Source: a virus. Taken from it: a stretch of 60,621 nucleotides of DNA. A program made the translations under genes and the position numbers. The stretch is from IMG/VR virus record IMGVR_UViG_3300048930_000296, positions 1 to 60,621 of that record; one strand, written 5' to 3'. This document shows, one piece after another, positions 1 through 60,621 of the stretch. The notes beneath the pieces were generated by a model, which saw only the letters and a list, made by a program, of their open reading frames with translations, ran no database searches and was not told the DNA's origin. The first letter of the stretch is position 1. Each line of letters opens with the position of its first letter.

Positions 1-126
1 ATGGCGCAATCAGTGCAGGGTTGACCACACTTGCCGACGTCAACCTTAACAGCGAGCTTCGTGCTCCTGGCCTTATGCTTCTTTGGCAGAGCGATTCACA
101 GTGGCAGGTTATAGGATTCGATTCTT
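1..126. repeat. Terminal overlap, left copy
   Basis: These 126 bases are identical to 60489-60614 at the other end of the window. The match breaks at base 127 (t here, a at 60615). This is what a circular assembly or a terminally redundant phage genome looks like when linearised, and it means the gene at 1-890 continues the gene that begins at 59789. Confidence 0.95.
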
Positions 127-890
127 TCGACGGTGATGATGCTCAGTTGAACACGGTGACGCAATCATTTTCGAATGCTTGGGTCATACCCTTGCGCTTT
201 GGTTTCGTTGAAGAGAATGCGACACGCAACTTTTTTGGATATGACGCAGCTTTTGATTTGACGTTCAGAATCCTGGACAATAAGCAGCTGACGCCAGCAG
301 CGCCGGCGCAGTATCTTGGTAATGACATCTATACCGAGCCAACCTTGATGCAAGGTTCAAGCTTGTCAGATGATATCATTTCAAATCTTGATGTTTTTGA
401 TCCGGGGGTTGGTCCTGTTTCGTTCTATTCAAACTGGCTTTACAGTAAGACAGCCAAGACCTACCGCGTTGTCTGCGAAGGGTTGGACGAGATTTGGGAA
501 TTGCGTGAGTTCTTGCATCGTCGTGCTGGTAGACTGCGTGCCTTCTGGCAACCAACTTTTGAAAACGATTTGGTTTTGCAGAATACTGGAACCATAACGA
601 ACACGTTGCTCATTCAAAAGGATAACTTCATTCGTTACGCCGCTGACCGCGAAAATATTGCTGTCGAAGCTGCGGGTGTTTGGTATCCAAGAGCAATCAC
701 GCTTATCACCGAAGTTGATTCTGATACTGTTCAGCTAACCCTCAGCAGTGCTTTGAACGTTGCAGCCAACCACGTTTCTCGCGTAAGCTGGTTGGGCCTA
801 CGGCGTCTCAATACTGACCGGGTTGAGATCCGCTATATAGGCGGTGGCGTTGCTGAAGTTTCGTTCAGAACCTTGGAGATCAGTCCGTGA
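1..890 (+). CDS. Tail protein, C-terminal part (gene split by window ends)
   Basis: This is the 3' part of a 529-residue protein whose first 240 residues are encoded at 59789-60488; the reading frame is continuous across the 126-bp overlap. It lies directly after the tape measure gene and before a DUF2163/BR0599-type gene, the usual place for a distal tail or baseplate-hub protein in siphoviruses. The product is rich in beta-type sequence with no catalytic motif that I recognise. An in-frame start at base 21 is only an internal TTG and should not be taken as the true start. The stop overlaps the GTG start of the next gene, which suggests coupled translation. The structural role is inferred from position. 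Confidence 0.85.
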   Translation, partial: GAISAGLTTLADVNLNSELRAPGLMLLWQSDSQWQVIGFDSFDGDDAQLNTVTQSFSNAWVIPLRFGFVEENATRNFFGYDAAFDLTFRILDNKQLTPAAPAQYLGNDIYTEPTLMQGSSLSDDIISNLDVFDPGVGPVSFYSNWLYSKTAKTYRVVCEGLDEIWELREFLHRRAGRLRAFWQPTFENDLVLQNTGTITNTLLIQKDNFIRYAADRENIAVEAAGVWYPRAITLITEVDSDTVQLTLSSALNVAANHVSRVSWLGLRRLNTDRVEIRYIGGGVAEVSFRTLEISP

Positions 891-2087: not shown

Positions 2088-4659
2088 GAAACAGACTGTT
2101 GGCTACCGATACTTTCTCGGCCAGCATATGGTTCTCTGCCATGGGCCAATTGATCTGATTACTAGAGTTGAAATTGACAAAAAGACTGCGTGGCAAGGTT
2201 CAACCACGGGTGGAACAATTTCAATCAACAACCCAGCACTATTCGGCGGTGACGATAGAGAAGGGGGCGTTTCTGGCAACGTTGATATTGATATGGGTGC
2301 TCCTGACCAATTGCAGAACAGTTATCTGCTCTCAGTTCTTGGACCAACGGTTCCAGCTTTCCGAGGTGTGGTCAGCGCAATACTCAGGCAATGCTATCTT
2401 GGAAATAGCCCATATCTCAAAGCGTGGTCTTTTCGTGCAACTCGTATTCTCAAGACGAGTAACGATGAGCCCCAGTGGTATCCTGAAAAGGCTTACATTG
2501 CAAAACCTGATCTTCCGATTGGAGTAACAGTAACATATAATCTGGATTCAACTTTCCCTTTGCTAACCGTTGGAAATCCAAGTTATCCTGCAATTGGAAT
2601 GGACTATCCTGCAACTTTGACTATTGGACCTTTTTCAGACACTCGGAGAATTGTCGCTGGCCCAAGTGGAGTTCGTGCAGACGACCGATTTGTATTTAAT
2701 GGGGTTGTTTATGATAGCTCAAATAACGCTTCAATTCCAGGTGGAACAGTTTTTGCTGAACTTCAGCCAGGGCAAACCCTTACTGTTACTGTTCGAAACA
2801 ATGTGAACATACATTGCGATGCAGGTGGAGATCTTTTAGCAGTCCCAGTTCTTTCACCTCAGCCTGACATGAACCCTGCTCACATTATTCGGGAATGCCT
2901 TACAAATCCTGATTGGGGTATGGGTTATCAAGCTTCTGATGTTGACGACGACGCTTTTTCTGCTGTTGCCGATACTCTCTTTGCTGAGGGTCTTGGTATG
3001 TCTTTGCTTTGGGACAGGCAGATTGTCATTGAAGATTTTATCAAAGAAATTGTTAGACACATTAACGCTGCGCTTTATGTTTCAAGAACAACTGGTAAAT
3101 TCGTTCTGAAGCTTATTAGAAATGATTACGTTATAGACGATCTTATCGTTCTTGATGAAAGCAATATCAGCAAAGTTTCAAATCCAAATCGCCCTACATT
3201 CGGAGAATTGTCAAACAGCGTTAGTGTTACATTCTGGGACTACTTGACCGGAAAAGATGCTAGCGTAACTGTCACGGATACGGCTCTTGTTCAAATGCAG
3301 GGGCAAGTGATTGGAACAAATATCCAATACCCCGGTTTCACGCATCGCCGAAACGCTACGCTTGCTGCTCAGCGTGATTTGAAAGCGCTTTCATCTTCCA
3401 TCTTTTCTTGCACCATTTATTGCAAGAGCATTGCGAGATCGCTGAACATAGGGGACACTTTCAAGTTCAGCTGGCCCAGATGGCAGATTTCGAATATGGT
3501 TATGCGAGTCAGTGGTATCGCATTTGGTGATGGCAAGAGCAATCAAATTAGAATTACTTGCTCTCAAGATGTCTTTTCAACTCCCGATGCTGTTGTGGTA
3601 TCAGCACCTGGAACTGAATGGGTTGATCCATCTGCGCCGCCAGTAGCTGTCATTGATCAAATGGCAGCTGAAATCCCTTACTACGAACTAGTCCAAAGTA
3701 AAGGGCAACTCGACGTTGATAATAACTTAGCTGCAGACCCTGAAATGGGCTATGTGATGGCAGCAGCTCCAAAGCCTGATGGATCAATCAATGCAAGGTT
3801 GTGGACAGATATTGGTTCGGGCTACGAGGATTCAGCAAGTCTTGACTTTTGCCCTTACGCTTTAACAGCTGACGCAATCAGCCCCGCGCAGACAAGTATC
3901 CTTCTCTCTTCCGGGTTAAATCTAGATCAAGTTGAAGTTGGTTCTTTTGTCCAGATTGGAAAAGAAAATACTAACCTTGAAATTTGTAGGGTCGATGCAA
4001 TAGACCTGAACACGAATGTTCTTACTGTGGGAAGGGGTTGTCTTGATACAACTCCAAAACCGCACGATCAGGGAACTCCGCTATTCTTCTGGGACTTGTT
4101 TAACGGCTATGACCCTATCGATTATAGCTTGGCGGAGACTGTCGCGCTGAAGATTGCAGTAGTAACAGGTTCGGGTGAGCTGAGTCTTCTTGACGCAACT
4201 GAAATGCAAGTAACTTTGGACCAAAGAGCTTGGCGCCCGTATGCTCCTGGGCAGTTTCAAATCAATGCTGAATACTATCCCGAAGATGTCAGCCCATTCA
4301 GTGGACCTTTGGAACTTACATGGGTTGGCCGTGACCGTGTTCAGCAGACATCAGGTGTTGTTTATGACCACACTTACGCAAATATCGGCCCTGAAGCTGG
4401 AACGACCTACAGAGTTCAAGGTTATGTCAACGGTTCACTTGTTCATACAGAAGAACCCGCTGTTAGCGGAACTGATTGGTCTCCGGGTGAAGGTATAGTC
4501 AGAGTGGAAGTTCACTCAAAGAGGGATGGGGTTTATTCATTCCAGCCTGCCGCGCATGACTTCTATTGCACTCTAGGTGAATTGCGAATACTTGCGGAAA
4601 GTGATGACCTGCGCTATACTGAAACCGGCGATACTGAAATTCGCGTAACCGAGGACTGA
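2074..4659 (+). CDS. Central tail tip protein (J-like host specificity protein)
   Basis: The 861-residue product is the largest tail-tip protein and belongs to the class of central fibre/hub proteins of siphoviruses. The best start is the ATG at 2074 (MGGSKKQTVGYRYFLG) rather than an upstream GTG-region start, because it has a GGAG site just upstream. The N-terminal part (VGYRYFLGQHMVLCHGP) is typical of tail-tip hubs, and the C-terminal third is beta-rich and likely Ig- or fibronectin-like. It probably takes part in host contact or DNA release. The region is visibly AT-richer than the capsid genes, which may indicate a separate origin of the tail-tip module. Confidence 0.82.
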   Translation: MGGSKKQTVGYRYFLGQHMVLCHGPIDLITRVEIDKKTAWQGSTTGGTISINNPALFGGDDREGGVSGNVDIDMGAPDQLQNSYLLSVLGPTVPAFRGVVSAILRQCYLGNSPYLKAWSFRATRILKTSNDEPQWYPEKAYIAKPDLPIGVTVTYNLDSTFPLLTVGNPSYPAIGMDYPATLTIGPFSDTRRIVAGPSGVRADDRFVFNGVVYDSSNNASIPGGTVFAELQPGQTLTVTVRNNVNIHCDAGGDLLAVPVLSPQPDMNPAHIIRECLTNPDWGMGYQASDVDDDAFSAVADTLFAEGLGMSLLWDRQIVIEDFIKEIVRHINAALYVSRTTGKFVLKLIRNDYVIDDLIVLDESNISKVSNPNRPTFGELSNSVSVTFWDYLTGKDASVTVTDTALVQMQGQVIGTNIQYPGFTHRRNATLAAQRDLKALSSSIFSCTIYCKSIARSLNIGDTFKFSWPRWQISNMVMRVSGIAFGDGKSNQIRITCSQDVFSTPDAVVVSAPGTEWVDPSAPPVAVIDQMAAEIPYYELVQSKGQLDVDNNLAADPEMGYVMAAAPKPDGSINARLWTDIGSGYEDSASLDFCPYALTADAISPAQTSILLSSGLNLDQVEVGSFVQIGKENTNLEICRVDAIDLNTNVLTVGRGCLDTTPKPHDQGTPLFFWDLFNGYDPIDYSLAETVALKIAVVTGSGELSLLDATEMQVTLDQRAWRPYAPGQFQINAEYYPEDVSPFSGPLELTWVGRDRVQQTSGVVYDHTYANIGPEAGTTYRVQGYVNGSLVHTEEPAVSGTDWSPGEGIVRVEVHSKRDGVYSFQPAAHDFYCTLGELRILAESDDLRYTETGDTEIRVTED

Positions 4660-6818: not shown

Positions 6819-6903
6819 AAATTTGCCGCGCTGTGCCAGCTACAGGGTGCCGCGCGGCTAGGGTGGCGGCACTGCGCTAGCCGCGCTGTAGCGGCCCCTT
6901 ATG
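6819..6903. repeat. Composite dispersed repeat, copy 1
   Basis: The copy contains AAATTTGCCGC-3 nt-GTGCCAGCTA (6819-6842) and, 51 bases further on, CGCTGTAGCGGCCCCTT (6884-6900). The same two blocks recur at 35789-35870 at nearly the same spacing. The first block recurs at 43214-43237 with identical spacing, and the second inside a gene at 16972-16988. Confidence 0.7.
6852..6886. terminator. Hairpin between convergent operons
   Basis: A perfect 10-bp inverted repeat (6852-6861 and 6877-6886, arms GCGCGGCTAG/CTAGCCGCGC) with a 15-nt loop lies between the end of the plus-strand tail operon (6784) and the end of the minus-strand polymerase gene (6899). The position is right for a bidirectional terminator. 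No long T-run follows on either strand, so rho-independent activity is uncertain. Confidence 0.5.
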
Positions 6904-9127
6904 CAGCGTCAGTTTCAGTGGGCATCACACCGATGTCTCTTAGGATTCGTAATGCTTCAGCTTCATACCAGTCGTAATCAATATCCTGAGGAAATTGATC
7001 CTCGAAAGACATGACAGGCTTTGCTCCATCCGACCGCGGAACCTTGTTTCCATTCTTAGCGTAAACAAGCTCACCCTGAACGTTCTTTGCGTAATACCAG
7101 CGCACAGTCTTTCCGATGTATTCAGTATGGCCAGGAGCGCTCAGCATATCAACTGCCATCTTGTATGCCTGCTTGCCGTAGCGAGCATTCCTTTCAGTCT
7201 CGCCCTTACGGATCCAGGCGTCTTTGTTAATCTCATAGAAGCCCGCCATCTCAAGAAGTTCTTCTTCTGTCTCGTGCGGCGGTGGAGGCAAGCGATCCCA
7301 CACTTTGACAGCTCCGCCAGTGACACTGCGAACGCAGACAAACTTAGTGATATCCTGGCATGACCGGATTGTGGTCACAATCGACGTTCCGCTTGTAAGG
7401 AACGCATTCACTGCATCAACGCAGATAGTTGCCATCGGGTTCTTCTTGAGCTTTTCGTCACTTTTCTTCTTGGATGCCCACGGGTTGGCATATGCGCCCT
7501 TACCCTTTGTCCCATCCGGAACTTCAATCCAAGCTTTAGTTGCGTCATCGAATTTTTGCTTGACTGCGGTGTAGTTGTTCACATCCCGTGAGAACAAACC
7601 CATGTATCTGGTTTCTTCAGTTTCGAATCCGGTATCAATTTCCCATTGCTTGACAATCGCGTTCATGATATGCTGCGCTGCCCGGGGGCACTTGATTACG
7701 ATTCCATCTGTGTTCGCGCTGACCACAGGGATTCCCGCTAGCTCCAGTCGTTCAATAAGCATCAGCAGTGAAAGCTGACCAGTCATTGTCACTTGGAACA
7801 ACAGGTCAGGCGCGTAGAGGATTGAACATTTGCTTCCAAGCTTACCGAAAGACCCGTTGATAACGATCTTGAGTGAATCAGCAACAACCTTGTTCTTCGC
7901 GCGCTTCGCTGCTATGCGCCTTTCAACGATTCCGTGGTAGACCCGCAGGAAAGGTTCGCCCAGGTGCTTAGGGGACAGCGCTTGGTTCAGGATGATATAT
8001 GGGTAATATGACGCCACGTCTTTGTCAAAGAGAATGTTGTTCTCATCTGTGTAGTGAGCAATCGTCTCTTCGCAACTGTGCAGCCCACCAAGACCCATCT
8101 GGTAGACGCTTCCGTTTATCTTAAGCTTCAGCGATTTCACTTCGCCTGGAAGCGCAACTGAACCAGAGTCATCCACAACGAAATAGGCGTTGGCTACAGT
8201 CTCAAGCGCCCACTGCAACAAAGGTGATTGGAACCGTATGAAGTGAGGAACGTGGTATCGGTAAGCTGTTCCAATTTCGATCTTAGGTCTCTGCGCCCTT
8301 ACTCCGGTGATGCGGTAGTATTCATTTCCGATAATAGCTTCAGCAATCTGCGCATCAGACTTGCTACGCAGATCAATCTTGTATTCGTTAGATAAGGTGT
8401 AACGCAGATCAATCTGCTCAGACAACTCGTTGCGAAGGATTTCAGTGTTGCGAGTGTCGTTGACACAATACCAACGAGTGATTGTAATCTGATCGGGCGT
8501 GAGGACTGTTCCAGGTGCAAAAGGCAGATCCTGCATTCGAGGCGCGTGCAACCGTCCCGCGTATGTCTTAAGCGAAGCCATGAGCGGCGCGACTTCAATA
8601 ATGTCAATGTGGTCGCAATAGTAAGCCTTCAACTTGTTGGCTTTCAGGATGTCGCTTCCGCGAAACCCGTTGACGATAATGTTGTGCGTTGCTTCAAATA
8701 ACTTGCGCGGGCGCCATCCATAGGACGCCATCAGCAGAATCGGAAGGTCGTAATTGTTCGAGTTATACCCGATGGTTGTTGCTGACTTCATCAACCACAT
8801 CAGCAACTGTGCGTTCAGAGGTTCACCTCCCTCAACCTCTTCAAAGTAACAAACTCCACCTGACTGGACATGCGTGAAAACAACTAGGAAATAATTCGGG
8901 TAAGATTCGACGTCAACAATGAACTGCTCTTTTCGAGCAATCGCATCACTTACTTCACCGACACTCATTAGTTTTACGGGGAAGCGCCTGGCTTCTTCAA
9001 GGCCTGGGAGATAATCAGGGCGAAGCCATGTTGCTTCGGGCGGAATGCGCTTTGCTTTCTCAGCTTTAGGAGGCTTCGGGGGCGGGGTATCGTCCCAAAA
9101 GAATCCAACCATGTCATTCCGAGCCAT
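6899..9127 (-). CDS. Family B DNA polymerase
   Basis: This 742-residue replicative polymerase has both a proofreading and a polymerising half. The 3'-5' exonuclease motifs are visible as VDVES (D72, E74), GYNSNNYD (about 120-127) and YCVNDTRNT (D224). Palm motifs are DVASYYP (370-376, motif A), KIVINGSFGKLG (420-431, motif B) and ANTDGIV (471-477, motif C, TDG in place of the usual DTD). It extends DNA at the phage fork. The ATG overlaps the stop of the clamp gene just upstream by one base, so polymerase and clamp are likely made together. Motif A differs from the common DxxSLYPS only by conservative changes. The end of the gene runs into a dispersed repeat. Confidence 0.93.
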   Translation of the reverse strand: MARNDMVGFFWDDTPPPKPPKAEKAKRIPPEATWLRPDYLPGLEEARRFPVKLMSVGEVSDAIARKEQFIVDVESYPNYFLVVFTHVQSGGVCYFEEVEGGEPLNAQLLMWLMKSATTIGYNSNNYDLPILLMASYGWRPRKLFEATHNIIVNGFRGSDILKANKLKAYYCDHIDIIEVAPLMASLKTYAGRLHAPRMQDLPFAPGTVLTPDQITITRWYCVNDTRNTEILRNELSEQIDLRYTLSNEYKIDLRSKSDAQIAEAIIGNEYYRITGVRAQRPKIEIGTAYRYHVPHFIRFQSPLLQWALETVANAYFVVDDSGSVALPGEVKSLKLKINGSVYQMGLGGLHSCEETIAHYTDENNILFDKDVASYYPYIILNQALSPKHLGEPFLRVYHGIVERRIAAKRAKNKVVADSLKIVINGSFGKLGSKCSILYAPDLLFQVTMTGQLSLLMLIERLELAGIPVVSANTDGIVIKCPRAAQHIMNAIVKQWEIDTGFETEETRYMGLFSRDVNNYTAVKQKFDDATKAWIEVPDGTKGKGAYANPWASKKKSDEKLKKNPMATICVDAVNAFLTSGTSIVTTIRSCQDITKFVCVRSVTGGAVKVWDRLPPPPHETEEELLEMAGFYEINKDAWIRKGETERNARYGKQAYKMAVDMLSAPGHTEYIGKTVRWYYAKNVQGELVYAKNGNKVPRSDGAKPVMSFEDQFPQDIDYDWYEAEALRILRDIGVMPTETDAA

Positions 9128-10083
9128 TACATGCGCATCCCGATAATGGCCCCGCGCAAGCGCTCGCCAAAGAACATTGTCGGTTCAGGGTATCTTGTAA
9201 AGTCCGCGTGCGTTGCAACACCAGCCAACAAGCTGAGCATCTTGATCTGGTAAGCGCCTTCAAACCCAAGACCGTCGACCGCGTAACCGGCGCCGCTTTC
9301 CAAGTCATCGTTCTCAGTTCGGAGCATACCGTTTCTGATGTAGACCCTTCCCGCCTTATCCGTGAAACCGTCCAAGCTTGCAAGCGCTTCGAAGAGCCTT
9401 GGGTCAATTGGGGTTGGCTTGGATTGAACGTCAAGAATCTTGGTAAGCTCTGGCCAAGTGGTTTCCAAGAGCTGCGTGCGGATCCACCGCCCGTCACTGT
9501 AATGGAATGTGACCGAGTTAGTGTCCATCTGGGCGTAAGTAGGTGGCTCATCAATCCGAAGCATTTCAGTGATTGCCACTTCGGGAATGTTGATTACTTC
9601 AGGAAAGTTTGCAGCCAGCCAATACTCAATCAGGCAGACGTTATTCGTAGCGAATGCTGATTGACCACGCAGAAGCACCCCGTTCGTCCACGGCCGAGAC
9701 GCATCATCTCCAATGAACGGTGAAATGACTTTCAGTGCGTTCAGCAGTGCTGCTCCGTCAAAGTCAACCCTTACACCAGCAGGTTCAACATGATGCGTTT
9801 CACCTTCAATGCAGTCAACAAAGACGTGAAACGGTCCACTTGAGATTTCAAGCTTGCCGTTCGCGCAGAACGTCATCGTCATAACATCCTTGCACCGGCT
9901 AATCGCCTTCACCAGCTTGTCAGCTTTCGGAATGCAATCAATGTCGCAATCAATTGGACTGCACAGTGCCAGAACGCCATTGTATGAACGGACAAAACCC
10001 CCTTCAATCCTGAAGTGCGTCATTGCGGGCATCAGATCGCGCTTGGCAACTGCACCCTGAACAAACTTCAACTCCTTCAGCAT
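9127..10083 (-). CDS. DnaN-like sliding clamp
   Basis: The 318-residue product resembles the bacterial polymerase III beta clamp. It has a three-part beta-alpha arrangement, a GVLLRGQSAFATNNVCLIEYWL segment typical of the second clamp domain, and a C-terminal ending close to the MPMRL of DnaN proteins. It would tether the adjacent family B polymerase to DNA. The ATG at 10083 (MLKELKFVQ) is preferred over a more upstream start, because upstream residues overlap a small gene. It is shorter than bacterial DnaN (about 370 aa). Identity is inferred from motifs and position rather than from a search. Confidence 0.72.
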   Translation of the reverse strand: MLKELKFVQGAVAKRDLMPAMTHFRIEGGFVRSYNGVLALCSPIDCDIDCIPKADKLVKAISRCKDVMTMTFCANGKLEISSGPFHVFVDCIEGETHHVEPAGVRVDFDGAALLNALKVISPFIGDDASRPWTNGVLLRGQSAFATNNVCLIEYWLAANFPEVINIPEVAITEMLRIDEPPTYAQMDTNSVTFHYSDGRWIRTQLLETTWPELTKILDVQSKPTPIDPRLFEALASLDGFTDKAGRVYIRNGMLRTENDDLESGAGYAVDGLGFEGAYQIKMLSLLAGVATHADFTRYPEPTMFFGERLRGAIIGMRM

Positions 10084-10205
10084 TGCTTGAACTCCAAAAC
10101 AATGCCAAAGCACGGGATCGGAAAGATGTAAAGCTTGCGCTTTTTCGAATCCCAGAACAACCCAATCCAGAAGTCATACCAGGCAAAGATTGGTCTAATT
10201 TTCAT
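10077..10205 (-). CDS. Small aromatic-rich conserved phage protein
   Basis: A 42-residue reading frame between dpdA and the clamp gene encodes an aromatic-rich peptide (KIRPIFAWYDFWIGLFWDSK near the start). Its ATG overlaps the dpdA stop (ATGA), and its stop overlaps the clamp start region. Small proteins with a similar FAWYDFW-type N-terminus occur in other phages as far as I recall. Function is unknown; a peripheral membrane or protein-protein role is possible from the hydrophobic N-terminal half. Confidence 0.65.
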   Translation of the reverse strand: MKIRPIFAWYDFWIGLFWDSKKRKLYIFPIPCFGIVLEFKQC

Positions 10206-11164
10206 CAGAACAGCTCCCTCACTTGCGCCTTGAAACGTTCATTTCCGGAAGCATTGATCATTGCGTTAACGACGCCGAACGCCCACAGGTTGTAAGCTGC
10301 TCGCGATTCATAGACAGAAGACAAGCGCTCGTAGGTGAACCCGTTCTCTTCCAACGTTCTGAACAGGTAATCTACTTCAACAGGCGACAGCGTTGTCATA
10401 TGCTGGTTTGCATCGTGCCTGCTTGGTGACTTCTCTGACACGTTGATTGGCCAGGCTGGTGCGTTTGCACTGACACCTGGCATAATAACCGAACCAAACG
10501 CCGCTGACTGGATCCAGGAAGATGAGTCGCAGCTATACCACGGATATTCATTCATAATGGGAACCGAGGTAATGCCGAACCCGTGAACCTTGAGTCTAGG
10601 GTTGCCCGAACCGTCAGTCAAGAACTTGTCCCAAATGCGGTCAAGCCAGACCATAAGTTGCTTCGTTGAGCTGCCAACCATACCGCCCAACGTGATGTAT
10701 TCGTAATTTCGAACGTAGTGTTCGAGGTAGCGTTCATCCTCACCAGCGTGGAAGCACGGAAGCGGACGCAGGTCCATTCCGTAATCCTCCTTGAAGCGCA
10801 TTTCCATTTCGTTCTGATTGCGCCAGGTCTGCAATGGGTCGCCAATACCGTCAAGGACAGACGCCATTATGTCATTGCCTTCAACGCGGATGATGTCAAG
10901 ATTGCGAACGATATAATCGCAATACTCCTTGACTGAAAGCTCAACCCCAAGCGAGTAGGCTGAGAACGCTCCGCTGTCCAGAAAGATGCGAGCTTTGTTG
11001 TTGCGCATATGATCGACGAAGCTCTGCTTGCCAACGTAATGCCAGGACTCAAGGATGTTGGGCAGTGTGGTCACAACATCCCTTTCACGTTCAGTCAGCT
11101 TGACATAACGGTTCATTCCCGGCATGTAACTGTTGGAATAGACCGCAGCCATGTAGATGTGCAA
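10205..11164 (-). CDS. dpdA: DpdA-type 7-deazaguanine DNA transglycosylase
   Basis: The 319-residue product belongs to the tRNA-guanine transglycosylase-like DpdA family, which exchanges guanine in DNA for a 7-deazaguanine base. Conserved blocks are FLDSGAFSAY (61-70), VLDGIGDP (103-110), LPCFHAGEDERYLEHY (135-150), LGGMVG (159-164), KVHGFGITS (192-200) and YSCDSSSW (210-217). Aspartates in these blocks are the likely nucleophile and base. The usual zinc site of tRNA enzymes is not seen, as expected for DNA-directed members. The start is a TTG with an AGGAG six bases upstream; the first ATG (residue 5) is too far from that site. It has its own candidate promoter at 11295-11323 and closes the preQ0 operon. 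Confidence 0.85.
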   Translation of the reverse strand: MHIYMAAVYSNSYMPGMNRYVKLTERERDVVTTLPNILESWHYVGKQSFVDHMRNNKARIFLDSGAFSAYSLGVELSVKEYCDYIVRNLDIIRVEGNDIMASVLDGIGDPLQTWRNQNEMEMRFKEDYGMDLRPLPCFHAGEDERYLEHYVRNYEYITLGGMVGSSTKQLMVWLDRIWDKFLTDGSGNPRLKVHGFGITSVPIMNEYPWYSCDSSSWIQSAAFGSVIMPGVSANAPAWPINVSEKSPSRHDANQHMTTLSPVEVDYLFRTLEENGFTYERLSSVYESRAAYNLWAFGVVNAMINASGNERFKAQVRELF

Positions 11165-11197
11165 TTTTGGCTCCTAACCATGCGGCTGTTATCGATG

Positions 11198-11250
11198 CCG
11201 ACCGCCGACCACCCTCGCCCCTCGCTCACGGTTGTGGGGACCGACCGCCG
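11198..11250 (-). other. Structured GC-rich leader of dpdA
   Basis: The 148-base gap between folE and dpdA contains CCGACCGCCG twice as a direct repeat (11198-11207 and 11241-11250). A 7-bp hairpin, GTTCCAG/CTGGAAC (11264-11270 and 11282-11288), lies close to the predicted transcription start. No gene fits here on either strand. The leader may control dpdA expression separately from the preQ0 genes. Confidence 0.45.
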
Positions 11251-11294
11251 GTTGCTATCCGGAGTTCCAGAAGTGCTACCGCTGGAACCCCTGC

Positions 11295-11323
11295 ACTTTA
11301 ACAGCCCCTGGCTCAGCGTGCAA
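11295..11323 (-). promoter_or_regulatory. Candidate sigma70-type promoter for dpdA
   Basis: On the minus strand TTGCAC (11318-11323) is followed by a 17-base spacer and TAAAGT (11295-11300), with TGT just before the -10. It overlaps the last codons of folE and would give a leader of roughly 120 bases before the TTG start of dpdA. Confidence 0.5.
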
Positions 11324-11942
11324 GCTGCAAAAATTCGGCACGCACGATAGGGTCATCGCGGAAGATTCCGCGCGTGGCTGACGTCACCGTGTGGTGCCCT
11401 TGCTGGCAGACCCCGCGCGATTCCATGCACAGATGCCGCGCTTTGATAACCACAGCGGCGCCGAGCGGTTCCAGGTGCGTCATCAGTGCATCAACAACCT
11501 GACACGTCAGACGCTCTTGCACTTGGAGCCTGCGGGCATACACTTCAAGCAGCCTGGACAGCTTGCTCAAACCCACAATCTTTCCCTTCGGCAGATACGC
11601 GATGGTTGCGGTGCCGAAGATTGGCGCCATGTGGTGTTCACAGTGGGAGTAAAATGGGATGTCTTTCACCATCACCATCTCGTCAACACCCTCAGCACCA
11701 TCTTCGAAGGTCTTCAGAATGTCTGCCGGGTCAACACCGTAGCCAGAAGTCCAGAACTCCCAAGCTTTGGCAACGCGGTCGGGTGTCTCTTCAAGACCCT
11801 GCCTGACGTCTTCACTGTCAGGCACCTGTTCAATTGCACGAATTAGGGCACTGGCAGCGACTGCAAGCTGCCCCCGGCGGCTCAAGGACGTGTCGAGTTT
11901 CATGTTGGCCAGTTGGTCCAGGGCTTCACGCAGCTTGCTCAT
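11313..11942 (-). CDS. folE: GTP cyclohydrolase I
   Basis: The 209-residue enzyme converts GTP to 7,8-dihydroneopterin triphosphate, the first step of both folate and 7-deazaguanine synthesis. Zinc ligands are visible as C101 and H104 in FYSHCEHHMAPIFG and C172 in RHLCMESRGV. The substrate-binding QGHHTVTSATRG segment (181-192) is also intact. The length matches the FolE family. The four-base overlap with the upstream queD shows that its role here is to feed preQ0 synthesis. All key residues look intact, so it should be active. Confidence 0.95.
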   Translation of the reverse strand: MSKLREALDQLANMKLDTSLSRRGQLAVAASALIRAIEQVPDSEDVRQGLEETPDRVAKAWEFWTSGYGVDPADILKTFEDGAEGVDEMVMVKDIPFYSHCEHHMAPIFGTATIAYLPKGKIVGLSKLSRLLEVYARRLQVQERLTCQVVDALMTHLEPLGAAVVIKARHLCMESRGVCQQGHHTVTSATRGIFRDDPIVRAEFLQLAR

Positions 11943-12394
11943 TTCTTGTCTCCGGTGTAGGTTGCTGAATTCGCGCCGTGCTCACGGACGGTCACGTGGT
12001 GCATACGCACGCGGGGCGCGTATCCGTAGTCGGCAAGCCACACTTCAGCAGCTTCGTAAACTAGCTTCGCAAATGCTTCGCAACCCGTTGCTTCGACAAC
12101 GATCACATCCGCCAGTCCCATGCCAGACAAGCTGCACAGGAAGTCCTTCTGCGGATCGTCGTCGGCCACCAGAAGCTTGTGATCGAAGGTGCGCTCGAGC
12201 TGTCCCTTGAACGACTTCAGAGACCCAAAGTCGACAACCCAATTGCGTTCGTCCAGCTCGTCCGCCTCAAACTCAAGGTGAACCGAAAGGGCGTAGCCAT
12301 GCAGCAAGTGGCAGTGGCTCTGCGCCTTCCATTGGCGGAAGCACGCCGAAAGGCCAATCTCATGGCCATACGTCTTCGACGACCTGTAGGTCAT
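11939..12394 (-). CDS. queD: 6-carboxytetrahydropterin synthase (phage-type QueD)
   Basis: The 151-residue product belongs to the 6-pyruvoyl-tetrahydropterin synthase fold and should make 6-carboxytetrahydropterin from dihydroneopterin triphosphate. Visible landmarks are YGHEIGLSACFRQW (9-22), SHCHLLHGYA (26-35), NWVVDFGSLK (51-60) and FDHKLL (70-75). The classical HGH zinc motif reads HGY here, and the usual AAHR motif reads ACFR. I recall this variant from other phage and bacterial QueD-like proteins, so the metal is probably bound by alternative histidines (H11, H27, H32). It overlaps the genes on both sides by four bases. Confidence 0.85.
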   Translation of the reverse strand: MTYRSSKTYGHEIGLSACFRQWKAQSHCHLLHGYALSVHLEFEADELDERNWVVDFGSLKSFKGQLERTFDHKLLVADDDPQKDFLCSLSGMGLADVIVVEATGCEAFAKLVYEAAEVWLADYGYAPRVRMHHVTVREHGANSATYTGDKK

Positions 12395-13374
12395 ACTTTC
12401 ATCACTCCAATCAGGAAATCAAGGTTCTTTTGGTGGGTCAGGCAGTCGTCGGGGTCCCGCGTGTGGACGAACTTCGGATAGTGGCGTTCGGTCGCAAGCG
12501 CAGGAACCAGAAATGTCCGAAGTTCAGGATGCGGGTCACGTTTCAACATGACCGAGCTCACCGCGTTGAAGGTGTTTCCGCCGTGCCGAAGATAGATGAC
12601 GATCCGCTCATAGGACGCGCCGTAGGTATCAAGCCAGTCTTTGAACCGACGCTTGATTGCCGAGATGTGGTAATCCTTGACCTCAGGGGTGCAAAGGTCC
12701 CCGTTCCAGTCGTAGGCGTTGAACGGGTATTCCATCTCAGCAGACGCCGGAATGATACCGGCGTTCGAAATATGGATGTAGTCGCAGACAGGCAACATCT
12801 TGGCTTCGTGCAGTGCCTTGCGAATAGACGTGTGGATGAACGACTTGCTGTAGGGCTTCGCGTGTGAACAGATCGTCATGAAGGCTGTAGGCTTTTCGAT
12901 TTTGCGCCGATGCCAGACACCTCTCCAGGCGTCTTCGAACATGTCCACGTAAACCTTGCCCACGCCCGCAAAATAGGGCTTCGGGTTGTGGCTGCTGAAG
13001 AACTTGTCACGTTCGAAATCCGCAGGACCTTTCTTCTGGGATTCGGTGTGTATCAACGCCAGGATACGTTGCGGATTGTCGTCCCAACGGATAGCTTCAT
13101 CTCCGATGTAAAAATCAAAGCTTGCTTTGCCGCTCTCTGTTGGGTAAGGTGACCGATTGATCCCCATAAAATAGTCAATCAAGTGGTAGCGTTTCAACCA
13201 CTGCTTGACCACATAGTCAGCTCGACAGCTCCAAGCGTAGAGCATATGCCCGCGCGTGAACAACTCAACAACCAGCGCAGCCATCTTGGTGTTCGGTTCC
13301 GGGATCACATCACCGCCAGCCCAGCTACCGCCTTTGGCAAGCGTGCCGTCGATGTCAATTCCAATGACTGCCAT
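12391..13374 (-). CDS. HAD-like domain fused to ArcS/DUF5591-like domain
   Basis: A 327-residue two-domain protein. Residues 1-120 look like a small HAD phosphatase (DIDGT at 7-11, WSC at 48-50, IGDEAIRWDD at 90-99). Residues 163-300 carry ICS-2 nt-type spacing KPYSKS (168-178), H181, and SNAGIIPASAEMEYPF (203-218) followed by YDWNGD. This pattern resembles the C-terminal core of archaeosine synthase ArcS, which attaches an amine to the nitrile of preQ0. The start is the ATG at 13374, overlapping the aminotransferase stop. Its place inside the preQ0 operon suggests it modifies preQ0 or preQ0-containing DNA. The domain match is from memory of the family pattern; the reaction is inferred. Confidence 0.6.
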   Translation of the reverse strand: MAVIGIDIDGTLAKGGSWAGGDVIPEPNTKMAALVVELFTRGHMLYAWSCRADYVVKQWLKRYHLIDYFMGINRSPYPTESGKASFDFYIGDEAIRWDDNPQRILALIHTESQKKGPADFERDKFFSSHNPKPYFAGVGKVYVDMFEDAWRGVWHRRKIEKPTAFMTICSHAKPYSKSFIHTSIRKALHEAKMLPVCDYIHISNAGIIPASAEMEYPFNAYDWNGDLCTPEVKDYHISAIKRRFKDWLDTYGASYERIVIYLRHGGNTFNAVSSVMLKRDPHPELRTFLVPALATERHYPKFVHTRDPDDCLTHQKNLDFLIGVMKV

Positions 13375-14396
13375 TACGCCCACTCCCCTGCTTTGATCAT
13401 TACCGTGCGAAGCGTTTCAAGCTGCTCATCGGTTGTGTAGAAGTTCGGCCCGAGCCTGAGAACATTCCCGTGCCACGATGCAACGATATTTTCGCGCTCA
13501 AAGACGCTGCGCACTGATGAGCTTGGCAGCGTCAGATCCCTGAAGGCCAGCGCACCATAGACGCGGCCGAACCTGTATTGCCTCAGAAAGTTCTCAACCC
13601 GAAGAACCCTGTTGTTGAGTTCATCCTCATGCCACATCAGGTAATCAAGAACGTTCAGCGCGATGCTTGCGCAGAGATTGTTCCCGCCCCCGGTTGTATT
13701 CCAACCGATGGAAATCTTGTCGTTGAGCTTTTCTGAGATGCCCAGGACTGCCAGCGGTGCACCTTGCGCAAGACCTTTCCCGCTGACAATCATGTCCGCA
13801 TTGCGGGAAAGGAAACGCTCACCGCAACGGCCGAAGCCGGTGATCATCTCGTCGGCAACCAGGAGCGCTCCACGCTCATCACAGAGCTTGCGCATCTTGA
13901 TTGGACTGTTCCAGGTTCCGTCCCAACCCGAGACAGGTTCGTAAATCAGAACGTCAAAATGTTGCTTCGGGGCATCGGGGTGCAAGTCAAGTTCAACAAC
14001 CCCCATCGGGTTGCCCCATTCGATGTCATAGCGAATCCCAGCCATGGACAGGGACTTCCCGTGAAAGCTTCCAGGAAGAACCGCCACGATAGGCCGGCGC
14101 CCAAGGTGCAATGCTGCAACCTGGATTGCACGTTCGATTGCCTCTGCTCCGGTGTTGAGCAGCTTCCAGGTGAAGCCCGGCTTGTATTCAGCAAGCTTGG
14201 CGCGCAACTGCTCAGCTGCCAGCGAAGGCCGGTCGTAGCTATTCAGCAGCCCATTTGCCTCCACATCGTTCAGCGCTTGCCTGACAGGAAGTGACCCGTG
14301 CCCAAGCGAGACATTCAGAATCCCGCTCAGCATGTCAAGCCATTCGTTGCCCATTTCATCGTAGAGGTAAGACCCTCTTGCACCGCAGACTTTCAT
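13374..14396 (-). CDS. Class III PLP-dependent aminotransferase (GSA-aminomutase-like)
   Basis: The 340-residue product is a fold-type I class III aminotransferase. The PLP lysine is in MIVSGKGLAQGAPL (about K207). The pyridine-binding aspartate is in LLVADEMITGFGR (about D182), with NTGAEAIE near residue 83 and SFHGKS near 111. It is shorter than typical family members (about 430 aa), mainly at the N-terminus. The ATG at 14396 overlaps the queC stop, and its own stop overlaps the start of the HAD/ArcS-like gene. Tight coupling within the preQ0 genes points to a role in making or using an amino group for the base modification. The substrate is unknown; it could also be a 2,1-aminomutase or amino-acid transaminase. 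Confidence 0.8.
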   Translation of the reverse strand: MKVCGARGSYLYDEMGNEWLDMLSGILNVSLGHGSLPVRQALNDVEANGLLNSYDRPSLAAEQLRAKLAEYKPGFTWKLLNTGAEAIERAIQVAALHLGRRPIVAVLPGSFHGKSLSMAGIRYDIEWGNPMGVVELDLHPDAPKQHFDVLIYEPVSGWDGTWNSPIKMRKLCDERGALLVADEMITGFGRCGERFLSRNADMIVSGKGLAQGAPLAVLGISEKLNDKISIGWNTTGGGNNLCASIALNVLDYLMWHEDELNNRVLRVENFLRQYRFGRVYGALAFRDLTLPSSSVRSVFERENIVASWHGNVLRLGPNFYTTDEQLETLRTVMIKAGEWA

Positions 14397-15178
14397 CACA
14401 GAACGAACCCCGCTTCCTCGAGCGCGGCAGCGCTGTAGTTGTCAGTCGCAGGCAGAGGCATCAAACCTTCCCGCCATGCGCGAACCACAAGCGGGTCTGG
14501 CCTGCCAGCTTCCTCGAACCCGGCAGCGCGCAGGACGTTGGCATGGTTCATATCCGTTGGCGGATACTTCCCGTCATAGCTGGTATGGCTGTAGGCAAGC
14601 GCAGCCCAGCAAGCGGGGTTCGCAAACGCCATGTGGACCGTCTGCGCCTTGGTGGCGTTCATCAGCGGAGTGATGATGCGGATGGCGCTCTCCGGATCCC
14701 TGTGGTCATGTCCGAGTGCCTTGTTGATGTAGTCTTCGGTTGCCCGGATGAACACCTCGCGGCAGTCGTCATAGTTCGCATTGTCCATCTGACAGACACC
14801 TGTGATGATATCGGCGCCGCCAAGCGCTTCCGCACGGTTTGCCGCGATGGTCAGGAACAGCGCATTGCGCATCGGAACAAACGTCAGCTCGCGACGGTTG
14901 CCGATCACTTCTTCCATTTGCTGCGCGTCGCTGTAGCGCTCAAGTTCGTTGTTGCTGGTGAGCGGGCTGGTGCTGACAAGACAGTTGGGCACGTCAACAA
15001 TTTCATGCGTCCGCACCCCCGCCATTTCAGCGACCTTCACCGCAGCGCTGAGCTCAATGCGGTGCCGCTGACCGTAGTCAAACGTGATTGCATGAACCTC
15101 ACTGTAGAACTCGCGTGCCCAAAACAGGCACGTCGTCGAATCCTGTCCGCCCGAAAGGACAACAAGCGCTCTCTTCAT
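14396..15178 (-). CDS. queC: 7-cyano-7-deazaguanine synthase QueC, phage variant
   Basis: A 260-residue ATP-dependent enzyme that turns 7-carboxy-7-deazaguanine into preQ0. The PP-loop SGGQDSTTC (9-17), FDYGQRH (33-39), LTFVPMRN (98-105) and TGVCQMDNANY (126-136) are intact. In normal QueC the C-terminal part carries a zinc site (SCY plus CGxCxxC). Here the aligned stretch around 196-216 reads YSHTSYDGKYPP then TDMNHAN, so the four cysteines are absent. I recall other phage QueC proteins with the same change. The start at 15178 matches the family N-terminus and overlaps the queE stop. Confidence 0.88.
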   Translation of the reverse strand: MKRALVVLSGGQDSTTCLFWAREFYSEVHAITFDYGQRHRIELSAAVKVAEMAGVRTHEIVDVPNCLVSTSPLTSNNELERYSDAQQMEEVIGNRRELTFVPMRNALFLTIAANRAEALGGADIITGVCQMDNANYDDCREVFIRATEDYINKALGHDHRDPESAIRIITPLMNATKAQTVHMAFANPACWAALAYSHTSYDGKYPPTDMNHANVLRAAGFEEAGRPDPLVVRAWREGLMPLPATDNYSAAALEEAGFVL

Positions 15179-15909
15179 CACTCTACTCCGATGATCTTGT
15201 GGATTTGCAGTTGCATGATGTATCCGTGCTTCATACACGAATCGCGAACAGCCATGACGTTCCTTGCGTTCTCTGCAGTGTTCTTCGCGTCCATGGGCTG
15301 AAGATAGATAGGCCTATCCCACCAGTCTGGCGGTCGAGCGACACACGGATTGGCGCTGTGCATCAGCGCAGTGGCGGGCAACCCGTCATCGAGCATGTTC
15401 TGAGCTTCCATGACATACTTGACGCAACAAGCTTGCTGCCAAATCTCGTGATGCACCTTACCCGACTTGGGACTGCATACGATGTAGACTCCGGTCCGCA
15501 TACTCGGAACGGTGTTATATCCGTATTGCAACGGTGAAGGGGGAAGTGTCCCGTTCGTTTCAACCTGGACATAATAGCCGCTGTATTCGAGCAGCTCGAG
15601 AAGCCTGGTCAAATTCTGCCTGTAGGGTTCACCCCCGGTGATGACCACAAGGCCGCGCCTCCAATAGTGAGGACGCCAAAGATCGTTGACTTCTTCCAGG
15701 ATTGCGCCTGGCCCCATCAGCTTTCGCCCGCTGGTGTATTCGGTGTCACATGCAGGGCATTGGAGGTTGCATCCAGCGAGGCGCACAAAGACGCACGGGG
15801 TCCCACAGAAAGGACCTTCACCTTGGATGGTAACAAAAATCGAATGCACATCGAGCATCCCGTCTGGACGGTCAACACGCTTTTCGATTGGCTGGTCGTT
15901 GAGCTTCAT
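15178..15909 (-). CDS. queE: 7-carboxy-7-deazaguanine synthase (radical SAM)
   Basis: The 243-residue radical SAM enzyme rearranges 6-carboxytetrahydropterin to 7-carboxy-7-deazaguanine. The [4Fe-4S] cysteines are in AGCNLQCPACDTEYT (C47, C51, C54), the SAM motif GGEP is at 92-95, and the family N-terminal SIFVTIQGEGPFCG block is at 23-36. The C-terminal QIHKIIGVE ending is typical of QueE. It is the first gene of the preQ0 operon, with a strong GGAGGG site six bases before the ATG. The downstream queC overlaps its stop. Confidence 0.93.
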   Translation of the reverse strand: MKLNDQPIEKRVDRPDGMLDVHSIFVTIQGEGPFCGTPCVFVRLAGCNLQCPACDTEYTSGRKLMGPGAILEEVNDLWRPHYWRRGLVVITGGEPYRQNLTRLLELLEYSGYYVQVETNGTLPPSPLQYGYNTVPSMRTGVYIVCSPKSGKVHHEIWQQACCVKYVMEAQNMLDDGLPATALMHSANPCVARPPDWWDRPIYLQPMDAKNTAENARNVMAVRDSCMKHGYIMQLQIHKIIGVE

Positions 15910-16036: not shown

Positions 16037-16591
16037 TTACTCAGCAGCCGCGGGCTCGGGAGCCACCGGAGCGGCCGGCGCAGCGGGCTTCGGAGCAGCG
16101 ATGCGGCCGGTCACGCCGTAGAACTTCCGCCAGCGCGCATACTCGGCGCGAACGTTCGCTTCGTTCAGACCGCGCGCCCGCGCGATTTCCATCGACTCGC
16201 CGATCGACGCGGTGCTCTGGTTGCGCTGCGACACCTCGTCGAAGATCGCCCAGGCCTGGCCACACAGGGTTTCGGGCTTCGGCCGGCGCACCCCGTTCGC
16301 TTCAGGCATCTTGTTCGCTTCCTTGGCAGCCAGCGCAGCGGCCTTCGCATCAGCCTTGGCCTGCTCCTTGGCAGCTTTCTCCGCCGCCTTGGCAGCCTTG
16401 GCAGCTTCGGCTTCCGCAGCCTTGGCAGCTTTCTGGGCTTCCTTCTCGGCAGCCTTCTGCGCCTTGGCAGCAGCCTTCTCAGCGTCCTTCGCTGCCTTCT
16501 CGGCAGCTTTGTCGGCAGCAGCCTGCGAGGCAGCAGCAGCCCTCACAGCGGCTTCATTAACCGCCGGAGCGGCCTCGGTATTCGTGTCCAT
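16037..16591 (-). CDS. Ala/Lys-rich protein with shared phage C-terminal domain
   Basis: The 184-residue protein has two parts. Residues about 5-95 are a long, charged alanine-, lysine- and glutamate-rich helix of the TolA or histone-H1 type. Residues about 98-160 are a compact domain beginning NGVRRPKPETLCGQAWAIFD and ending RWRKFYGV. The same domain recurs in two other proteins here (16684-17430 and 34544-35287). A DNA-binding or nucleoid-like role is plausible from the basic helix but not proven. The start has a GGAGAG site. A candidate promoter lies at 16638-16665. Confidence 0.75.
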   Translation of the reverse strand: MDTNTEAAPAVNEAAVRAAAASQAAADKAAEKAAKDAEKAAAKAQKAAEKEAQKAAKAAEAEAAKAAKAAEKAAKEQAKADAKAAALAAKEANKMPEANGVRRPKPETLCGQAWAIFDEVSQRNQSTASIGESMEIARARGLNEANVRAEYARWRKFYGVTGRIAAPKPAAPAAPVAPEPAAAE

Positions 16592-59789: not shown

Positions 59790-60621
59790 TGGCTTTGATT
59801 GCACTTGAAGCGTTCTGGGAACACCAGTCAGTTTCGAACGATGTTCCAGCAAATCCTGCTCTTGTCACAGTTCCGTCAACGAGCTGGTCAGCCGCTTCTT
59901 TGTCACCATTTGGTGAAGGCGATTTCACTGATTCACCACTCACACCTCCTAACACCGCATGGGCTCGCGCAACTGGGCTCTGGATTCGACGTGGTGTCAC
60001 GCTCAACGGACAGGCTCCGATTCTAATCAAAGGGAACTGCGAACAAGCAATGTATCTCTATTTTGACGGAGATTACGTTGGCACTCTTAACCCGACGAAT
60101 GCAGCTAGGTCAGATAACCCCGAATACAATGTGGTCATTCCTGTAGAACTTGCAACGACAGGAACTCACGAGATTGCTCTTCTTTGCCTTGATGATACGG
60201 GAGTTCTAACGCCCGACATAAGTTACATTTCGGTTGAAGCTGATTACCTTCCAGCGTTCTTTCCTTTTCAACCTGAAGCTCCTGTAAATGAAGAGCTTAC
60301 TTGGTTCACTGATCTGATTGTTGCAAAGGATGGTTCTGAAGAGAGGCGTCAGATCTCCCAATACCCGAGACAAAAGTTCACTTACCTCTATCCCGCTATT
60401 GCTCGCAAGAAAGCTAATGCGCTGAACATTGTTTGGGGAGCTCTTCCTGATCGTTGGTTGGTTCCGGTATGGCCGCAAGCTGAACGCTATGGCGCAATCA
60501 GTGCAGGGTTGACCACACTTGCCGACGTCAACCTTAACAGCGAGCTTCGTGCTCCTGGCCTTATGCTTCTTTGGCAGAGCGATTCACAGTGGCAGGTTAT
60601 AGGATTCGATTCTTAAAACCT
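59789..60621 (+). CDS. Tail protein, N-terminal part (gene split by window ends)
   Basis: This is the first part of the 529-residue tail protein completed at 1-890. The stop codon near the window end (60614-60616) is false, because it depends on seven bases (60615-60621) that do not match the sequence after base 126. The ATG overlaps the tape measure stop. The product is beta-rich, and the role is inferred from position. Confidence 0.85.
60489..60614. repeat. Terminal overlap, right copy
   Basis: Identical to bases 1-126. The last seven bases (60615-60621) differ from 127-133 and may be a read or assembly artefact. Confidence 0.95.

Follow-up and report, generated by a model that had tools for sequence, protein, structure and literature searches.

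The operon described here raises the question of which base is placed in phage DNA when a PLP-dependent aminotransferase (AT) and a fusion of a HAD phosphatase with an ArcS core are encoded among the genes for preQ0 synthesis and DNA insertion. The locus lies in the virus record IMGVR_UViG_3300048930_000296, which was analysed over its whole length of 60,621 bases (hereafter the window); a direct terminal repeat of 133 bp at its two ends indicates a nearly complete phage genome. Using HMMs from Pfam, PHROGs, and NCBIfam, all seven genes listed in the initial annotation (queE, queC, AT, fusion, queD, folE, and dpdA) were recovered on the minus strand between 10205 and 15909 (Table 1). The joint presence of folE, queD, queE, queC, and dpdA in one phage identifies a preQ0 and DpdA operon, in which FolE, QueD, QueE, and QueC would convert GTP to preQ0 and DpdA would swap guanines in the phage DNA for a 7-deazaguanine, presumably as a restriction shield.

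Table 1. Genes of the operon, contents of the queC–queD slot in related phages, and other features discussed in the text.
Feature	Record	Position	Strand	Family evidence or content
queE	window	15178..15909	-	PHROG_2076 E=4.7e-59; NCBIfam QueE models
queC, preQ0 synthase without Gat domain	window	14396..15178	-	PF06508 E=2.2e-49; SGGQDS motif kept
AT, class-III PLP aminotransferase, 341 aa	window	13374..14399	-	PF00202 E=1.9e-32
HAD phosphatase + ArcS-core (DUF5591) fusion, 330 aa	window	12391..13383	-	PF17884 6e-9; NF040592 1.4e-6; PHROG_1238 7.3e-10
queD, 6-carboxytetrahydropterin synthase	window	11939..12394	-	PF01242 E=7.5e-19; PHROG_2389 8.8e-42
folE, GTP cyclohydrolase I	window	11313..11942	-	PF01227 E=1.6e-66
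dpdA, DNA guanine transglycosylase, TTG start	window	10205..11164	-	PHROG_887 E=3.2e-85; NF041059 1e-3
dnaN-like sliding clamp (context)	window	9127..10113	-	PHROG_947 E=2.1e-73
DNA polymerase (context)	window	6899..9127	-	PHROG_1252 E=2.1e-204
Direct terminal repeat, 133 bp	window	1-133 and 60489-60621		128/133 identical
Ala/Lys-rich protein	window	16037-16591
Ala/Lys-rich protein	L003 (cyanophage)	7301-7882
Ala/Lys-rich protein	L005	6039-6752
Ala/Lys-rich protein	L004	2-376
RpiB/LacAB-type isomerase	L003 (cyanophage)	9990-10433		also in L002 (cyanophage)
queD, canonical HGH type	L005	10954-11331		21% identity
DUF5591 protein, ORF19	L011 (Sulfolobus virus STSV1)	3971-4534		exact ArcS signature
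Slot	MMDA13			QueF-like gp33 + small membrane-like protein
Slot	MiCath			59-aa ORF; Gat-QueC
Slot	PaMx25			nothing; Gat-QueC
Slot	R7M			nothing; QueC of Gat-QueC length
Slot	Iggy			small ORF
Slot	CAjan			preQ0 transporter + two unknowns
Slot	L021 (Klebsiella phage K4PH164)	1820-3294		three unknown genes + small ORF
Slot	VpKK5, RHEph04, a Stenotrophomonas phage			nothing

The proposal that all seven genes are tightly coupled holds for six of them, which overlap by 1–10 bp, but not for dpdA, which lies 148 bp beyond folE. The queC frame opens at 15238, and the ATG at 15178 is its likely start by alignment, giving a 1-bp overlap with queE; the likely start of the fusion gene is the ATG at 13374, the same as in the related contig L004. 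The following junctions are all negative (queC–AT −4, AT–fusion −10, fusion–queD −4, and queD–folE −4), and the two extra genes thus share the start/stop overlaps of the pathway genes, as had been claimed. Downstream, dpdA is separated from dnaN by 91 bp and dnaN overlaps pol by 1 bp; dnaN also follows dpdA in L004, L005, L008–L009, L013–L014, and L018–L023. The order queE-queC-queD-folE-dpdA-dnaN-pol, together with related replication genes, marks the window by gene order as a Queuovirinae-type siphophage, with Sphingomonas phage MMDA13 as the nearest named relative (DpdA 74.7% identical).

The backbone genes and their order are common to the window and the Queuovirinae operons of CAjan, MMDA13, PaMx25, Iggy, and R7M; the difference lies in the slot between queC and queD, which holds AT and the HAD-ArcS fusion in the window and a QueF-like enzyme, a transporter, a small ORF, or nothing in the others. 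Comparison of ten related operons with the backbone queE-queC-slot-queD-folE-dpdA-dnaN-pol showed that the slot frequently, but not in every case, holds a protein that handles the nitrile base, and therefore AT and the fusion are placed functionally downstream of preQ0. Products have been reported or predicted for such phages: the DNA of CAjan carries dPreQ0 (PMC6884629), and dG+ made by QueF-like or Gat-QueC enzymes is the predicted product of sister phages in the subfamily (PMC7472734). In the window, the Gat extension is absent from QueC, and there is no separate QueF gene in the operon, where PF14489 matches only FolE, below its cut-off. The slot genes of Klebsiella phage K4PH164 may likewise form a tailoring set that has yet to be described.

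Since aldehydes can be aminated by aminotransferases, preQ0 might instead be reduced or hydrolysed first, with AT then acting directly on a carbonyl attached to the base and no amine being condensed. This route is highly improbable, as the operon encodes no QueF-type reductase or other nitrile-reducing enzyme and the conserved ArcS core would be left without a role.

The zinc cysteines C-x8-CxxCxxC are lost from QueC of the window, L004, L005, MMDA13, and Iggy and are kept in E. coli QueC, cyanophage QueC, and Gat-QueC. This loss was considered as a mark of the pathway and rejected, for MMDA13 and Iggy show it without the AT–fusion pair; the HGY variant of QueD was rejected in the same way, being shared with MMDA13, MiCath, Iggy, and R7M, which also lack the pair. 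In L005, queD itself is swapped for a gene of canonical HGH-type QueD, with the pair and its neighbours kept. Because Iggy is reported to carry dPreQ0 (PMC11008142), this QueC type is possibly zinc-free. In CBASS IV/Qat defence, QueC-family enzymes have been proposed to link deazaguanine to proteins (PMC13329287), and a QueC lacking the canonical zinc cysteines could accordingly suggest that the operon yields a free small-molecule deazaguanine or a protein adduct against host defence, with no further DNA modification. There is very little chance of this: the operon encodes a full DpdA with 75% identity to that of MMDA13, and the same QueC trait in dPreQ0-carrying Iggy makes it very likely that the window encodes an ordinary preQ0 maker.

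The pair proved to be rare. Among 50,697 phage records, a DpdA homologue was found in 223 and the fusion in only two, both Synechococcus phages of one near-identical type, for which Yong-L2-223 and Ssp-JY38 are the named isolates with the pair, and IMG/VR added two contigs with the fusion, L004 (67% identical) and L005 (54%). Because AT and the fusion are kept at 39–67% identity in three other phage lineages, they are not a chance set of ORFs. In all four lineages (window, L004, L005, and the cyanophages), the two genes are adjacent and overlapping, and every genome with the pair also has queE, queC, queD, folE, and dpdA. The search for the same seven-gene order elsewhere, recommended in the initial annotation, gave a divided answer, with gene order in two of the lineages known from incomplete contigs only: L004 and L005 have the pair at precisely the same place as the window, in the queC–queD slot, but in the cyanophages it sits outside the que operon, about 4 kb from the que genes and beyond dnaN and pol. 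A different gene order has thus separated the two genes neither from each other nor from a genome with preQ0 and DpdA genes. The opposite case, the extra genes without any preQ0 gene, was looked for in the phage records, IMG/VR, and prokaryote genomes and was not seen. No relatives of the fusion were detected in 84,980 prokaryote genomes by exact peptide patterns, which can miss distant relatives, and no additional viral lineage came from scans with individual proteins of the cyanophages or L005.

These layouts bear on whether AT and the HAD domain are passengers that serve host or sugar and amino-acid metabolism, leaving only the ArcS core to act on preQ0. Both families, the class-III aminotransferases and the HADs, are broadly metabolic, and the position of the cyanophage pair, away from the que genes and beyond dnaN and pol, would suit such a role. 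Nevertheless, all lineages have the HAD domain covalently joined to the ArcS core and an AT frame that overlaps the frame of the fusion, and in three of them the pair is inserted precisely in the queC–queD slot, which makes passengers quite unlikely. An Ala/Lys-rich protein with a conserved C-terminal domain (..KMPExNGxRxPKPxxLCxxxWxIxD..) is encoded upstream of queE in the window, L004, and L005 and directly upstream of AT in the cyanophages; a role in DNA binding or regulation is possible.

AT was assigned to the class-III PLP aminotransferases by its PF00202 match, the catalytic Lys, the PLP Asp, and the phosphate-binding residues. Alignment with E. coli GabT and ArgD showed that the PLP lysine K208, D183, E154, H113, T236, and the carboxylate-binding R315 are kept, and the catalytic residues are intact across the four lineages. 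Judged by the roles of the corresponding GabT residues, the substrate side differs in all four lineages: the gate glutamate (GabT E211) is replaced by Trp or Leu, R141 by Lys, and Q242 by Ile or Val. AT thus appears to be an active aminotransferase with an unusual substrate pocket, and the loss of the gate glutamate would be compatible with both substrates being anionic. Identity between the window and L004 is 54% for AT, the lowest in the operon, and 94% for DpdA.

The ArcS core (DUF5591) forms the C-terminal half of the fusion (PF17884, 36.4 bits against a cut-off of 26). The segment ICSHAKPYSKSFIH fits PCx3KPYx2Sx2H, which we take to be the ArcS family signature; its sole mismatch, and a weak spot of the assignment, is the leading Pro, here Ile. 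C172-x3-KPY-x2-S-x2-H184 is invariant in the four lineages. STSV1 and A. fulgidus AF0587 (2q07) carry the full signature exactly, and a profile built from the phage proteins together with the nt-1 and STSV1 homologues matches AF0587 at E=1.7e-9. The STSV1 homologue is a stand-alone DUF5591 protein. Of ArcS, the fusion contains only the core and is not filed as ArcS, because the full-length architecture is missing and the NCBIfam equivalog model gives 27.3 bits against a cut-off of 440. Compared with the cyanophage proteins, the ArcS core is 51–54% and the HAD half 41–43% identical, making the core the best conserved part across distant lineages.

The HAD half carries the DxDGT motif and the Lys and Asp of motifs III and IV that characterise HAD phosphatases, with D10, D12, K86, and D95 invariant in the four lineages; no Pfam HAD model matched it, and PHROG_1238 was the only family hit. 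Its closest solved relative is 9iqw (AfhF), a weak profile match (E=0.006) with a structure match probability of 0.94, being the best PDB match by profile and among the better plausible ones by structure. AfhF, from phage HY126, is a stand-alone protein of remote similarity, annotated in its PDB title as a phage arabinose-1,5-diphosphate phosphatase. Structures predicted from three-sequence alignments, too weak for firm fold claims, gave clear matches to class-III aminotransferases for AT (pLDDT 59) and no search match at E<=0.001 for the fusion (pLDDT 65).

Considering the gene content, families, motifs, pairing, and slot observed, the locus is probably, with moderate confidence, a hypermodification operon in which AT and the HAD domain would make an amine and the ArcS core would join it to preQ0 in the DNA pathway; we infer the reactions and their order from sequence. 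AT would transaminate a carbonyl compound, which is likely phosphorylated, with glutamate as the probable donor, to give a small amine; the HAD domain would strip the phosphate; and the ArcS core, acting on either the free base or DNA, would condense the amine with the C7 nitrile of preQ0 to an N-substituted amidine, a decorated archaeosine. The joining step is assigned to the core because archaeal ArcS does likewise with lysine. The earlier idea of a base decorated beyond preQ0, for example by an amine on the nitrile, is thereby strengthened, by analogy with archaeal ArcS and through the core signature and the slot. QueE was the only radical SAM protein found in the 60,621-base record; with no RaSEA-type enzyme to cleave it to plain G+, the amine adduct is probably the final product.

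The ArcS core could also make plain dG+, using ammonia, Gln/Asn, or an amino acid, and AT and the HAD domain would then only supply or recycle the nitrogen donor. The dG+ predicted for phages of the same subfamily agrees with this, as do the reported use of NH4+, Asn, or Gln by M. jannaschii ArcS (stated in PMC11298593) and the measurements on nt-1, the one measured phage with an ArcS homologue, in which only traces of dG+, dADG, and dPreQ0 were found (PMC6884629). Even so, an enzyme fed by Gln needs neither a dedicated aminotransferase nor a fused phosphatase, both of which are kept in four lineages, and RaSEA is missing for cleaving an amino-acid adduct, so that plain dG+ is an unlikely outcome. 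For the preferred amine adduct, the chief doubts are the RaSEA dependence of archaeal ArcS, the trace-level modification in nt-1, because of which phage ArcS activity is not established, and the identity of the amine.

In the cyanophages, a gene for an rpiB-like sugar-phosphate isomerase overlaps the end of the fusion; rpiB was not found in the window. Together with the weak likeness of the HAD half to 9iqw, RpiB points, as a speculation, to an amine derived from a sugar phosphate. A tentative and rather doubtful extension is that a sugar phosphate (pentose or other, supplied by RpiB in the cyanophages) might be transaminated, dephosphorylated, and joined to preQ0 to form an N-(polyhydroxyalkyl) archaeosine in DNA. 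If this polyol form were true, it would represent a new class of phage hypermodification, with amidine formation on the 7-deazaguanine nitrile.

The 7-deazaguanine operon and an ArcS in a phage (nt-1) are known already. Searches of the literature, with Cui et al. 2023 outside their scope, did not find an aminotransferase and HAD-ArcS fusion combined with genes for preQ0 and DpdA, nor did a set of 5.39 million open papers contain anything under DUF5591 or the names of the cyanophages; the resulting DNA base is apparently not described before. Cui et al. 2023 are said to have reported four additional phage 7-deazaguanines, and the phage bases reportedly include carboxy-, unsubstituted, methyl-, and formyl-preQ1-type forms, none of them from an AT–fusion pair. 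Those in the literature examined bear small C7 groups (cyano, aminomethyl, amide, and amidine). If true, the amine-adduct pathway would widen the range of phage 7-deazaguanines to bulky adducts and would be the first biosynthetic route dedicated to making one. Its ArcS core, independent of tRNA, would allow nitrile–amine condensation to be studied, and the adduct could serve as a chemical handle in DNA and hinder restriction enzymes in a further way. Because the gene set is small, defined, and can be expressed in E. coli, the question is open to direct test.

Archaeal ArcS, the alpha subunit of archaeosine synthase, is among the closest known systems; its lysine transfer acts on preQ0 in tRNA. 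The enzyme of Thermococcus kodakarensis attaches lysine to preQ0, even on the free nucleoside, and transfers it only in complex with RaSEA (PMC11298593). The fusion resembles archaeal ArcS in its DUF5591 core and its C-x3-KPY-x2-S-x2-H and YPF-N-x-YD motifs, whereas it has no TGT-like N-terminal domain, PUA domain, or RaSEA partner. Vibrio phage nt-1 likewise has a DUF5591 protein adjoining queD and folE, but this is a stand-alone ArcS without a HAD fusion or an annotated aminotransferase beside it, and its signature has R in place of K and lacks the final His. Unlike archaeal ArcS, the phage core described here shares its polypeptide with a HAD phosphatase, and its gene is coupled to that of an aminotransferase.
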